Below, in pieces: positions 41,969-48,842 of a DNA stretch of 64,000 nucleotides (the stretch's first letter is position 1; every line of letters begins with the position of its first letter). The stretch is from positions 1,736,001 through 1,800,000 of the forward strand of contig CP079955.1 in assembly GCA_019357535.2 (NCBI GenBank), written 5' to 3'. The translations under genes and the position numbers were made by a program. The notes under the pieces were generated by a model. That model was given only the letters and a program-made list of their open reading frames with translations, ran no database searches and was not told where the DNA came from. The stretch comes from Macrococcus sp. 19Msa1099 (lineage in GTDB: Bacteria > Bacillota > Bacilli > Staphylococcales > Staphylococcaceae).

Positions 41969-42343
41969 ATGAATAATTTATATGATGAAGTAAGAAACTC
42001 ACGAAACGAACTATTAGAACAAGCTAAACAGCTTAGTACATCTGAACTTAACTATAACTTCGGCAGCAAATTCAAGAGCATTAAATATAACTTACTGCAA
42101 ATCGCATATGCATATCACGAAGGACTGGATCAATATAAGGACCAGATTGGTGATTATGACTTATTTAAAGAGAACGGACCCAAACTGAACATTATCGATA
42201 TCGAGAACTATTTCGATAATATTGATTATGCAATCGAACAAAACCCAGTGCCTCCAGAAACAGTGATGCCTTATATCTTTAACGACTATGAGTATCGCGG
42301 TAAGATTAAGTTTCTGATGATATTCTTTGAAGTGTTGAAATAA
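41969..42343 (+). CDS. Hypothetical protein, 124 residues
   Basis: Acidic, helical protein beginning MNNLYDEVRNSRNELLEQAK, with LNYNFGSKFKSIKYNLLQIAYAYHEGLDQYKDQIG in the middle. No signal peptide, membrane segment or known motif. AGAGGTG lies 6 bases before the ATG. A terminator follows at 42353. Not recognised; it could be a small immunity or antitoxin-type protein, but nothing shows this. Confidence 0.6.
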   Translation: MNNLYDEVRNSRNELLEQAKQLSTSELNYNFGSKFKSIKYNLLQIAYAYHEGLDQYKDQIGDYDLFKENGPKLNIIDIENYFDNIDYAIEQNPVPPETVMPYIFNDYEYRGKIKFLMIFFEVLK

Positions 42344-42352
42344 TGAAACTAA

Positions 42353-42384
42353 TAATCCCCCAAATAAAATTTGGGGGATTATAA
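42353..42384 (+). terminator. Terminator of the 124-residue gene
   Basis: AATCCCCCAAAT / ATTTGGGGGATT stem with a T-containing 3' side. Confidence 0.8.
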
Positions 42385-42414
42385 AATTTTGAAGTGATTT
42401 TTGTATAATTTTCA

Positions 42415-42536
42415 ATACTATGAATCGTCTGTCTTGAGCGTTTCAATCTATTTGCAAATTCTTTTGCCGAAAGATTTTGATGATAATATGATTCTATGAA
42501 CACGAGTTCATCCGTGTTAAGATGGTTAGAGGTCAT
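42415..42536 (-). pseudogene. Remnant of an IS30-family transposase (N-terminus)
   Basis: MTSNHLNTDELVFIESYYHQNLSAKEFANRLKRSRQTIH resembles the N-terminal helix-turn-helix of IS30 transposases. After ~40 residues similarity stops and no DDE domain follows. It lies alone between a terminator and the protease gene. The spacer 42537-42650 shows nothing else. Confidence 0.6.
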
Positions 42537-42707: not shown

Positions 42708-44240
42708 CTACTGTACTCCAGCTTTACTCCACTCATTCCAAACGATATCAGCATCATTCTGACCATAAAGATCATATGCAGACTGTGCAAGTGCATTTTT
42801 AGCATCAGAGAAATTAGAATTAGATGTTAGGTATTGTGTGAGTGCACGATAATATATTTGTTCAGATTTTTGATTCCCTAGTTGTCGGATGGTGTTATAT
42901 GCAATTTTATTTGGAATTCCTGAATTGATATGGACACCACCATTATCTGACTGCGTATTGACATATTGACTCATATTTTCAGGTTGTCCAAAGGCACCTG
43001 GATTTGACAGACTTCTCAATGCATCTCCTGATTGTCCTGGAGTATATACGTCTTCTCCCATCAACCAGTCGTTAGGATCTACAAAATAACCAAAGATATC
43101 AGAGAAACTTTCATTCAATGCACCTGACTGACCATAATATTCAAGGTTCGCAGTTTGTTGAGTAACACCATGCGTAATCTCATGTGCAACAACATCGTTT
43201 GCTCCTGATAAGGCTGTGAAAGTTCTACCATCCCCATCACCGTAAATCATCTTATCGCCAATCCAAGCGGCATTATTTGTATTATCTCGGCCACCATAAT
43301 TATTCACATGGACAATAGAATTAATTGGACTACCATTATTATCATAAGATTCACGATTAAATCTATTTTTGTAGAATTTATAGGTCTGAGCAGCATAATA
43401 GTTAGCATCTACTCCCGCACGCTGATTATTGCTATCGAAAACCTTGTCATAGTCTGTAATAAGATTGGCACTACCATTATACTGATTCAGACTATAAGCA
43501 GATATTTGTCCTTTATTTGTCACATCCTGTAAAGCATAACCCTTACTGATACTATTGATATTGATACTTTTAGTATCTCCTAGTACGCCACGACCAGTTC
43601 CTACAGCAGCAGCTTCTTGAATTAGATTCAGCTTCTCTAATACTTGTCCGTTATCTGCATCGATTTTCACTTTCCAATGTCCAACTTTAGGAGATACAGT
43701 AGTAATTTCTATATCATATACTAGTTTATTTTTATCTCCATCAATAACAACATTGGAGCTTTTAATGACTTTATCTCCAAGGTTATCTGCTTTATCTTCA
43801 TTGATAGAAAGTGATTTAAATGCTTCAGAGATAGCAGTCTTACTGTCGATATTAACATTATTTGTAGGTGCAATAGTCTTAGCGTCTATAGCACCATTGA
43901 CAAGTACAACCTCACCTTTGTCATTTGTATGTACTTTAATCTCTTGGTCTGTAGCAAATCTTCCTTTTGATTTGGGATGTAAAGTGTAATGTACATAACC
44001 TAAATTATCTTTTTCTACATTTGTTACTTCATATTGTTTATAATTCTTCTTCAAATTTTTATAACCCGGAAGATCTTTGAGAATTGTTTTTACTTCTTTC
44101 TTTGATTGAATATTTCCATTTACGTCAAGTTGCTTAAAACTTTGATTCTTAGCTTGAGCCTCATGTGTATCAGCGATGCCTAGAGCAGATGAAATTATTG
44201 CTGTTGAAAGAACAATAGTACCTAGTTTACTCTTTTTCAT
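42708..44240 (-). CDS. M4-family neutral metalloprotease (thermolysin/aureolysin-like)
   Basis: 510-residue prepro-protease. Signal peptide ends near THEAQA (about 30). The propeptide holds an FTP region (40-90) and a PepSY-like domain. The mature domain starts near 200. HEITH at 353-357 has catalytic Glu354, NESFSDIFGY supplies the third Zn ligand, and GGVHINSGIPNKIAYNT carries the catalytic-site His. GAGGTG precedes the ATG at 44240. Secreted, Ca/Zn-dependent. The promoter contains a 16-bp palindrome with PlcR-box geometry, and a PlcR-like regulator with a peptide gene lies upstream. Confidence 0.96.
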   Translation of the reverse strand: MKKSKLGTIVLSTAIISSALGIADTHEAQAKNQSFKQLDVNGNIQSKKEVKTILKDLPGYKNLKKNYKQYEVTNVEKDNLGYVHYTLHPKSKGRFATDQEIKVHTNDKGEVVLVNGAIDAKTIAPTNNVNIDSKTAISEAFKSLSINEDKADNLGDKVIKSSNVVIDGDKNKLVYDIEITTVSPKVGHWKVKIDADNGQVLEKLNLIQEAAAVGTGRGVLGDTKSININSISKGYALQDVTNKGQISAYSLNQYNGSANLITDYDKVFDSNNQRAGVDANYYAAQTYKFYKNRFNRESYDNNGSPINSIVHVNNYGGRDNTNNAAWIGDKMIYGDGDGRTFTALSGANDVVAHEITHGVTQQTANLEYYGQSGALNESFSDIFGYFVDPNDWLMGEDVYTPGQSGDALRSLSNPGAFGQPENMSQYVNTQSDNGGVHINSGIPNKIAYNTIRQLGNQKSEQIYYRALTQYLTSNSNFSDAKNALAQSAYDLYGQNDADIVWNEWSKAGVQ

Positions 44241-44290
44241 TAAAAACACCTCTTCTTTAAATTATAAAATTTATTACTAACTTTATTATA

Positions 44291-44327
44291 TATTCAAACT
44301 TGAATATTTCAATATATTTTTTGAATA
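44291..44327 (-). promoter_or_regulatory. Candidate operator of the protease promoter
   Basis: TATTCAAACTTGAATA at 44291-44306 is a perfect 7-2-7 palindrome, and a further TTGAATA lies at 44321-44327. Compared with the PlcR box TATGNAN4TNCATA it has the same 16-bp frame and differs only at the symmetric positions 4 and 13. Confidence 0.6.
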
Positions 44328-44332
44328 TAAAA

Positions 44333-44371
44333 AATAATCTATTAATTCTATAATAGAACTAATAGATTATT
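44333..44371 (-). terminator. Terminator between the peptide gene and the protease
   Basis: Perfect 12-bp stem AATAATCTATTA / TAATAGATTATT followed by TTTTTTA on the minus strand. It ends the peptide transcript before the protease promoter. Confidence 0.8.
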
Positions 44372-44393
44372 AGAGAGTTCTTCCAAAGGGTTC

Positions 44394-44492
44394 CTACCAA
44401 AGATGCCACTCAGGAAGGTTATCAAAGTTTAAAATTATTACGCTGCTTGCAAATATAAGTAAAGAACTTGTATTTTTAAAGACTTTTTTCAT
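44394..44492 (-). CDS. Candidate PapR-like signalling peptide precursor, 32 residues
   Basis: A short frame starting MKKVFKNTSS, then a hydrophobic stretch (LLIFASSVIIL) and a C-terminus DNLPEWHLW. GAAAGGAG lies 7 bases before the ATG and a strong terminator follows, so it has all the marks of a gene. The layout (basic start, secretion segment, short polar/aromatic end) matches the pheromone precursors of the RNPP family; PapR of Bacillus cereus ends in DLPFEF, also with a Leu-Pro. It is divergent from a PlcR-like regulator. The mature form cannot be fixed from sequence; a 7- to 9-residue C-terminal peptide is the guess. Confidence 0.7.
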   Translation of the reverse strand: MKKVFKNTSSLLIFASSVIILNFDNLPEWHLW

Positions 44493-44536
44493 TTTTATTC
44501 TCCTTTCTAATATTTTAAAGTAAAATTCTAAGTAAT

Positions 44537-44552
44537 ATTGTATATATTCATA
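44537..44552. promoter_or_regulatory. PlcR-box-like site in the divergent promoter region
   Basis: On the minus strand TATGAATATATACAAT matches 14 of 16 positions of TATGNAN4TNCATA. It lies between the regulator gene and the peptide gene. A TTGTAT-16-TAATAT promoter for the regulator overlaps it. Confidence 0.55.
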
Positions 44553-44599
44553 TAATATATAATATAATGTATATCTATATAATAAGAAAGGGTTAATTT

Positions 44600-45451
44600 A
44601 TGAAAATAGGAAAAAGAATTAAAAATCGCCGTCAACAACTTAATATGACTCAACATGAGCTATCAGATGGGATATGCACTCAAAGTCAAATCAGCAAGAT
44701 AGAGAAAGACGAGATTATACCTTTAGCAAGTCTTCTAGTGAAGATTGCTGAGAAATTGGAAGTTTCTTTAGATGATCTAGTCTATGAAAATAGAACAAAA
44801 AGAATAGAAAATGAATTTTTAATAGATAAGGAACGTATAGACTATTTATTGAAAATTAGAGAATATGGTAAAATACAAAATCTTATTAGCGTGATAGATA
44901 AAGAAAAATTAAGCTTTAATGACTCTATATATATTATGTATATATCATTAGTAACAGAAAACTATACACGAAATAGTAATTCATTAGAAAAATTAAATAT
45001 TTTTTACTCTGAACACAGTGACACTATGGAGGATAATCTTAAGATAAGAACTCTAAATAGCTTGGGTATTATGTCAATGGAAAATAATCAACCAGAGAAA
45101 GCTAAAGAGTATTTCTTGAAAGGTTATAGAATTGCGATAACAAGTAATGTATATGAGGATTTGTTATTCAAGGTTGCATATAATTACCTAAGGCTTCTCT
45201 TTCAGCTTGAAGAATACAAAGAGATGTATGATATTTCATGCACAGCTATAGAATTTGTCTTCGTGAATAATAATACCTATTGTTATCCTCAACTAGTTTT
45301 CTATAAATATTTTGCTTTAATGAAACTTAATTTGTTATCACTCGTAGATATGAAAGAGATAGAGACGGCCTTATTTTTCAGCATAAAAAAAGGTGAAAAT
45401 AAAACTACAGAAAATCTTGAAAAAATTATATGTAATTTGAAAAGATTATAA
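44600..45451 (+). CDS. PlcR-like transcription regulator (RNPP family, XRE HTH plus TPR)
   Basis: 283 residues, the size of PlcR. HTH at 5-60: IGKRIKNRRQQLNMTQHELSDGICTQSQISKIEKDEIIP, close to the ICHQSEVSRIE region of PlcR. The rest is helical with TPR-like repeats (LNSLGIMSMENNQPEKAKEYFLKGY; YNYLRLLFQLEEYKEMYDISCTAIEFVF), the peptide-binding part in PlcR, NprR and Rap. AAAGGG precedes the ATG. It lies divergent to the peptide gene and next to the M4 protease, as in PlcR/NprR control of proteases. Rgg-like alternatives are possible. Confidence 0.85.
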   Translation: MKIGKRIKNRRQQLNMTQHELSDGICTQSQISKIEKDEIIPLASLLVKIAEKLEVSLDDLVYENRTKRIENEFLIDKERIDYLLKIREYGKIQNLISVIDKEKLSFNDSIYIMYISLVTENYTRNSNSLEKLNIFYSEHSDTMEDNLKIRTLNSLGIMSMENNQPEKAKEYFLKGYRIAITSNVYEDLLFKVAYNYLRLLFQLEEYKEMYDISCTAIEFVFVNNNTYCYPQLVFYKYFALMKLNLLSLVDMKEIETALFFSIKKGENKTTENLEKIICNLKRL

Positions 45452-48569: not shown

Positions 48570-48842
48570 GCGAGTGGCCGATAATAGGACATTCAGACTC
48601 ACTTTTGTACGCGAGTGGCCGATAATGGGACATTCAGACTCACTTTTGTACGCGAGTGGCCGATAATGGGACATTCAGACTCACTTTTGTACGCGAGTGG
48701 CCGATAATGGGACATTCAGACTCACTTTTGTACGCGAGTGGCCGATAATGGGACATTCAGACTCACTTTTGTACGCGAGTGGCCGATAATCGGACATTCA
48801 GACTCACTTTTGTACGCGAGTGGCCGATAATAGGACATTCGA
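48570..48842. repeat. Tandem array of 41-bp repeats (about 6.7 copies)
   Basis: GCGAGTGGCC recurs at 48570, 48611, 48652, 48693, 48734, 48775 and 48816, exactly 41 bp apart. Units are identical except one base after GATAAT (A, G, G, G, G, C, A). Not a CRISPR array: there are no unique spacers. Same period as the array at 27001. A 7-codon frame (48561) with AAAGGTG leads into it. Confidence 0.95.

Follow-up and report, generated by a model that had tools for sequence, protein, structure and literature searches.

The 64-kb window considered here (the whole stretch of DNA analyzed, G000:C1:1736001-1800000, where G000 is the window's genome, a Macrococcoides close to M. caseolyticum) contains a 32-codon gene located between the gene of a secreted M4 metalloprotease and the divergent gene of a 283-residue HTH/TPR protein, which raises the question of whether the three form a peptide-based signaling circuit of the kind found in Bacillus cereus, with the protease as its output. 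The three genes themselves, the family membership of the regulator, a clade-specific match of peptide and receptor and the repeated linkage with an M4 gene were all observed, and the locus probably encodes a one-component quorum-sensing circuit of the PlcR/PapR type, to which an M4 protease of the NprB type is linked.

Organization of the locus

The divergent orientation of the peptide and regulator genes, proposed in an earlier note made from the sequence alone, is evident from their coordinates and strands (Table 1). Downstream of the protease, at 42306-42536, a fragment resembling the N-terminus of an IS30-type transposase was present, and a similar IS30-type fragment follows the protease of Macrococcus caseolyticum DSM 20597. 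Elsewhere in the window (48570-48840), an intergenic array of a 41-bp unit (6.6 tandem copies, 98% matches) lies beside a P-type ATPase gene.

Table 1. Positions of genes and putative control elements in the window
Feature	Position	Strand	Basis or remark
M4 metalloprotease gene (thermolysin/aureolysin-like)	42708-44240	-	Pfam domains and aureolysin match
Protease promoter (-35 TTGAAA, 16-nt spacer, -10 TATAAT)	44285-44312	-	Consensus match 11/12
Perfect 8+8 palindrome ATATTCAAacTTGAATAT in the spacer of the protease promoter	44290-44307		Candidate operator
Intrinsic terminator of the peptide gene	44333-44371	-	19-nt arms and T run
Putative pheromone precursor gene, 32 codons, MKKVFKNTSSLLIFASSVIILNFDNLPEWHLW	44394-44492	-	
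DNLPEWHLW codons, expected region of the mature signal	44397-44423	-	PapR-like core LPEWH; predicted ends
Ribosome-binding site of the peptide gene, AAAGGAG	44500-44506	-	
PlcR-box-like site in the peptide-regulator interval	44538-44551		Weak; one mismatch to ATGHAWWWWTDCAT
Ribosome-binding site of the regulator gene, AGAAAGGG	44585-44592	+	
PlcR-like RRNPP regulator, 283 aa	44600-45451	+	HTH, residues 7-60; TPR-type RNPP_C, residues 85-257

Affiliation of the regulator

Both domains that had been read in the regulator were recovered by domain search: the HTH_3 match had an E-value of 2e-13 and the TPR-type RNPP_C match one of 1e-6, better than the curated Pfam cut-off, and the latter domain was recognized more strongly in relatives, such as G002 (1.4e-10) and a Macrococcus bovicus plasmid regulator (8e-10). 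The supposed resemblance to PlcR also held. With a profile of ten sequences of the regulator family, PlcR was by far the best solved structure (2qfc, E 7.5e-28, full length, profile positions 2-277), while Rgg-type chains (5w4m, 4yv6) gave 7e-5 to 4e-4 with the same profile, and up to 5e-4 with RapH included. PlcR was likewise the best solved homologue when the window regulator was used as a single query, albeit with an E-value of 2.6e-5, reflecting how distant the two proteins are in sequence.

Five of the six mapped groove positions were kept or conservatively replaced (PlcR/window: K89/R87, N159/N153, N201/N195, K204/R198, Q237/Q231), the exception being Y275, which is T269 in the window regulator. 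Two of the mapped positions correspond to N205 and K208 of PlcRa, and the remaining ones presumably line the peptide groove. N205 and K208 are described as contacts to the peptide main chain (PMC3519770). An AlphaFold model, calculated for the window and DSM 20597 sequences, had a mean pLDDT of 41 and was not usable.

In the regulator tree, the proteins of the window, G002 and G009 formed one clade (support 100/98), and PlcR was placed on a very long branch, so that its exact position is unsure. The nearest named relative was the regulator of DSM 20597 (95% identity), which was the only match in a scan of genome contigs for regulator relatives; a search of viral contigs produced none. A second PlcR-like paralogue (32-33% identity) is encoded in the window's own genome, G000, on a smaller contig, C2 (L032, 6609-7448). 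Its neighbors are insertion sequences and genes of the ParA type, and no peptide is recognizable nearby any longer.

The peptide gene and its predicted signal

The earlier note had described the short gene as having a strong ribosome-binding site and a terminator of its own, and both were found: the AAAGGAG motif precedes its ATG, and the 19-nt inverted repeat followed by a T run was calculated to fold into a hairpin of -18 kcal/mol (z -5.0). Since this terminator is strong, the peptide and the protease are probably made from separate transcripts. Application of a strict ORF filter (good ribosome-binding site, two basic residues near the start, hydrophobic core) left only three ORFs in the 64-kb window, and simulation by composition gave an expectation of 0.0005 such ORFs in the intergenic region of the peptide.

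The small precursor gene adjacent to the regulator, which is a trait of RRNPP systems, is kept in both clade relatives. The regulators of G002 and G009 are preceded, about 107-109 bases upstream and on the same strand, by signal-type ORFs (MKLRLKSFTLAASLTLTIFAANMPSEWHLW and MMKKRLMPILYIAAVTTVLFIDKIPTEWH) ending with MPSEWHLW and IPTEWH, respectively. Among 6,370 short stop-bounded frames taken from the window and eleven related loci, the P..EWH ending occurred only in the window peptide and in these two, and strong terminator hairpins follow the peptide genes in all three cases. Because adjacent signal-type ORFs with a matching ending are present in both clade relatives, the 32-codon frame is, judging from these comparisons, a real gene. 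The alternative of a chance frame, or of a small membrane protein that has nothing to do with the regulator, could draw on the ORF being shorter than usual genes and on most species of genus g4 keeping the regulator without an intact adjacent peptide, but it is already strongly disfavored, and in our view very improbable, given the low expectation from the simulation, the clade-specific ending beside three of three regulators and the dedicated terminator behind each of the peptide genes.

The PapR-like Leu-Pro core (LPxxH) suggested for the signal gained support from a class-level sample of 399 Bacilli genomes, in which peptides encoded beside PlcR-like regulators of other families end with LRLPYQH, DVDLPPCH, LTLPPQH, TLPFQH, GGLPFQH or LPDLPSRH. 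The known PapR7 peptides include SDLPFEH and KDLPFEY (PMC10017872), as well as ADLPFEF (PMC3519770). The NLPEWH of the window fits the pattern of an LP core with an aromatic or His end, with LW added. As to the orientation of the peptide gene, it does differ from that of papR, which is located downstream of plcR, but it is not unusual: divergent peptides were found at many of the sampled PlcR-like loci of other Bacilli families, which makes the arrangement in the window ordinary. The placement also echoes the divergence of nprB and plcR in B. cereus.

Conservation in related genomes

The comparison covered one genome per species. Co-conservation of peptide, regulator and protease, which the earlier note had proposed as a check, was found in genus g4, probably Mammaliicoccus, and in G002, whose regulator (39-41% identity) is the nearest one that is intact among the species compared. 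In G002, the three genes lie within a single 3.5-kb stretch in an order different from that in the window: the peptide comes first, then the regulator, then a gene on the opposite strand for a LuxR-type response regulator, and last the M4 protease. Among the g4 species, G031, G020 and G014 have protease, peptide and regulator one after the other on a single strand, whereas G026 and G023 have protease and then regulator. Counting G000, G002, G031, G020, G026, G014 and G023, the distance between an M4 gene and the regulator is no more than about 1 kb in two genera and three gene orders, and all three genes are intact in the window, G002, G031, G020 and G014. The proteases of the window and of g4 belong to separate M4 clades and their regulators to separate clades as well, so the linkage is either old or was made twice. 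In the wider sample of Bacilli, no M4 gene adjoined a PlcR-like regulator among the matches listed, the nearest being about 10 kb away (G223).

The earlier note had also expected the peptide frame to persist in relatives that keep the regulator. This was true for the clade relatives G002 and G009, but only in part for the more distant g4, where five of the eight regulator-keeping species were without an intact neighboring peptide: the frame in G026 is disrupted around a conserved IPYDMH, G017 has a remnant, and none was seen next to the regulator in G023, G029 and G011. Two of these, G026 and G023, have kept the adjacent protease. Such losses of the peptide speak against the proposed circuit. 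The precursors of the three species with an intact frame have no obvious leader and are, therefore, candidates only. The close relative DSM 20597 provides no test of the peptide, since codon 28 of its regulator gene (L031, 61-912), within the HTH part, is an in-frame stop and the peptide region falls into an assembly gap, apparently located at an insertion sequence. The contig that carries its protease begins about 90 bases ahead of the matching protease leader region, in what appears to be the end of an insertion sequence.

In G009, peptide and regulator are still paired, but the M4 orthologue is located elsewhere and is linked to an Rgg regulator and a different small peptide instead of a PlcR-like regulator, which is an observation against the proposed circuit. 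At this second locus (L123, 2094-4813), a 32-residue signal-type ORF (MKLKLQRLMTFGLGILIVVTLDDSISNLANLR) lies upstream of the protease gene and the Rgg gene downstream (Rgg_C, 1.1e-50); a different quorum-type regulator is thus linked there to a protease of the same kind. Plasmid relatives of the regulator were found in pLI0213a of Macrococcus bovicus (L143, 5850-9306) and in pMCCL1 (L145, 3998-8556), each with a small exported-type peptide ORF adjoining (MIKRNKMVLIFLTGVVISLAIGAPPDWY; MFKKYIGTLLLGTFLSFIDFSILPPPDIFFIFWN) and followed downstream by a short ORF resembling a precursor, by a ThiF-family adenylyltransferase and by either an MFS transporter or radical SAM enzymes. These loci are possibly peptide-controlled clusters for microcin C-like or other modified peptides.

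The protease and its proposed control

The secreted M4 protease was recognized by its Peptidase_M4, M4_C, FTP and PepSY domains (PF01447, PF02868, PF07504, PF03413), in agreement with the earlier reading, with a signal peptide, an FTP/PepSY propeptide and the catalytic domains; its closest solved structure was aureolysin (1bqb, E 3.7e-140). In B. cereus, the M4 gene nprB adjoins plcR in the opposite orientation and is controlled by PlcR, and NprB is at least partly responsible for the maturation of PapR (PMC10017872, PMC2588459, PMC4701985). Since NprB is thus both a target of PlcR and a trimmer of PapR, the window protease may similarly be both target and signal-maturing enzyme. Gene linkage and the B. 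cereus precedent suggest that it is the output of the circuit.

According to a competing explanation, the PlcR/PapR-type pair is genuine and acts on its own genes and on others, but the protease is a mere neighbor with its own constitutive or otherwise regulated promoter. The protease gene does have a near-consensus promoter, although promoter-like sites in the region were not more numerous than in shuffled sequence, and a strong terminator separates it from the peptide gene. Aureolysin-like M4 proteases are, moreover, common in the family and often present without the regulator, and the orthologue in G006 (70-72% identity) has no PlcR-like neighbor. Conversely, all six species of genus g5 have the regulator with a downstream peptide ending with VDIDVH, VDLDVH or NFH, and no linked M4 gene was present at the two g5 loci inspected in detail; the ThiF clusters next to the plasmid paralogues also indicate that the family has several targets. 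Against these points stand the recurrence of an M4 gene beside the regulator in two M4 clades, two regulator clades and three gene orders, and nprB as a proven target of the homologous regulator, and we consider the mere-neighbor explanation unlikely.

The search for an operator yielded none: PlcR-box matches in the 64-kb window were at chance level (nine against 7.8 expected), and the PlcR-box-like site in the peptide-regulator interval, where 0.036 counted matches were expected (palindromic sites being counted twice), was not conserved in relatives. The perfect palindrome ATATTCAAacTTGAATAT lies between the -35 and -10 elements of the protease promoter, a location typical of repressors, and it is damaged in G004, whose regulator has a stop codon. 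The regulator might, accordingly, be a repressor acting at this site and released by the peptide, with a sign opposite to that of PlcR. Such a mode of action is a variant of the PlcR/PapR-type circuit and compatible with it, but it appears quite improbable, since palindromes arise easily in AT-rich DNA, the M4 genes of G002 and g4 lack this one in their upstream regions, and the nearest homologue that has been studied acts as an activator (PMC2464732).

Under the PlcR/PapR-type circuit, the 32-residue precursor would be exported by means of its basic-hydrophobic leader and cut down outside the cell to a few C-terminal residues around the core LPEWH(LW), possibly with the aid of the adjacent M4 protease, as for NprB and PapR. 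The peptide would then re-enter through an oligopeptide permease (Opp-type binding proteins are encoded in the window's genome) and, judging from homology and the conserved groove residues, bind in the TPR groove of the regulator, which would alter transcription from the short intergenic promoters that serve the peptide and protease genes and, probably, its own gene.

Comparison with known systems

The locus resembles PlcR-PapR-NprB in its HTH/TPR regulator with PlcR as the best full-length profile match, in the small precursor with predicted export and a C-terminal LPxx(H/F/Y) core, and in the M4 gene adjoining the regulator divergently. In contrast to B. cereus, the peptide gene lies between protease and regulator, the signal continues with LW after the conserved His, the window contains no convincing PlcR box and the host belongs to the Staphylococcaceae. 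The PlcRa-PapRa pair of B. cereus is similar in consisting of a PlcR paralogue and a precursor ending with CSIPYEY, but acts in the oxidative stress response and cysteine metabolism, and the available part of its description notes no linked M4 protease (PMC3519770). Rgg-SHP/ComR systems share the superfamily and a similar regulator size, and the M4 orthologue of G009 has an Rgg gene and a small peptide ORF as its neighbors, but Rgg-type chains match the family profile far more weakly than PlcR.

In the NprR-NprX system, an RRNPP regulator of about 420-430 aa with nine TPRs and its adjacent peptide control a neutral protease. The window regulator, in contrast, has 283 residues, and the proteins of 420-450 aa in its relatives are separate genes with far lower scores. 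The agr system of Staphylococcus aureus exerts quorum-dependent control of aureolysin with a membrane histidine kinase and a cyclic thiolactone peptide; it is alike in placing an aureolysin-type protease under quorum control, but has no parts in common with the window locus.

Implications for the Staphylococcaceae

PlcR-type systems have not been reported in Staphylococcaceae in the published surveys. In an RRNPPA survey (mBio 2022), PlcR was predominantly found in Bacillus, and Staphylococcus accounted for less than 0.05%, with Rgg only (PMC9765709), and in the RRNPP_detector paper Staphylococcaceae appear solely through five gene clusters that a supplement contains (PMC10075063). In the papers searched, we found no PlcR-type signaling for Macrococcus and no RNPP signaling for Mammaliicoccus, although an earlier listing in the RRNPP_detector supplement is possible. 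With no earlier report found, the locus would extend the PlcR/PapR-type systems, here with a linked protease, to a new host family. Macrococcus proteases resembling aureolysin have been included in a list of homologues of virulence factors, with their role unknown (PMC10400458).

The regulator had no match at an E-value of 1e-15 in the large sister genus g3, presumably Staphylococcus. A bolder idea, which we find rather unlikely, is that Bacillaceae and Staphylococcaceae share an old triad of regulator, PapR-like signal and M4 protease that amplifies itself, in which the aureolysin-type protease would be both target and signal maturase, and which Staphylococcus proper would have lost, its aureolysin now being under other control. 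If the PlcR/PapR-type circuit is true, a peptide signal that can be synthesized and tested would determine how much protease these bacteria, which are associated with dairy products and animals, produce, and the lack of a regulator match in g3 would bear on the divergence of protease control within the family.
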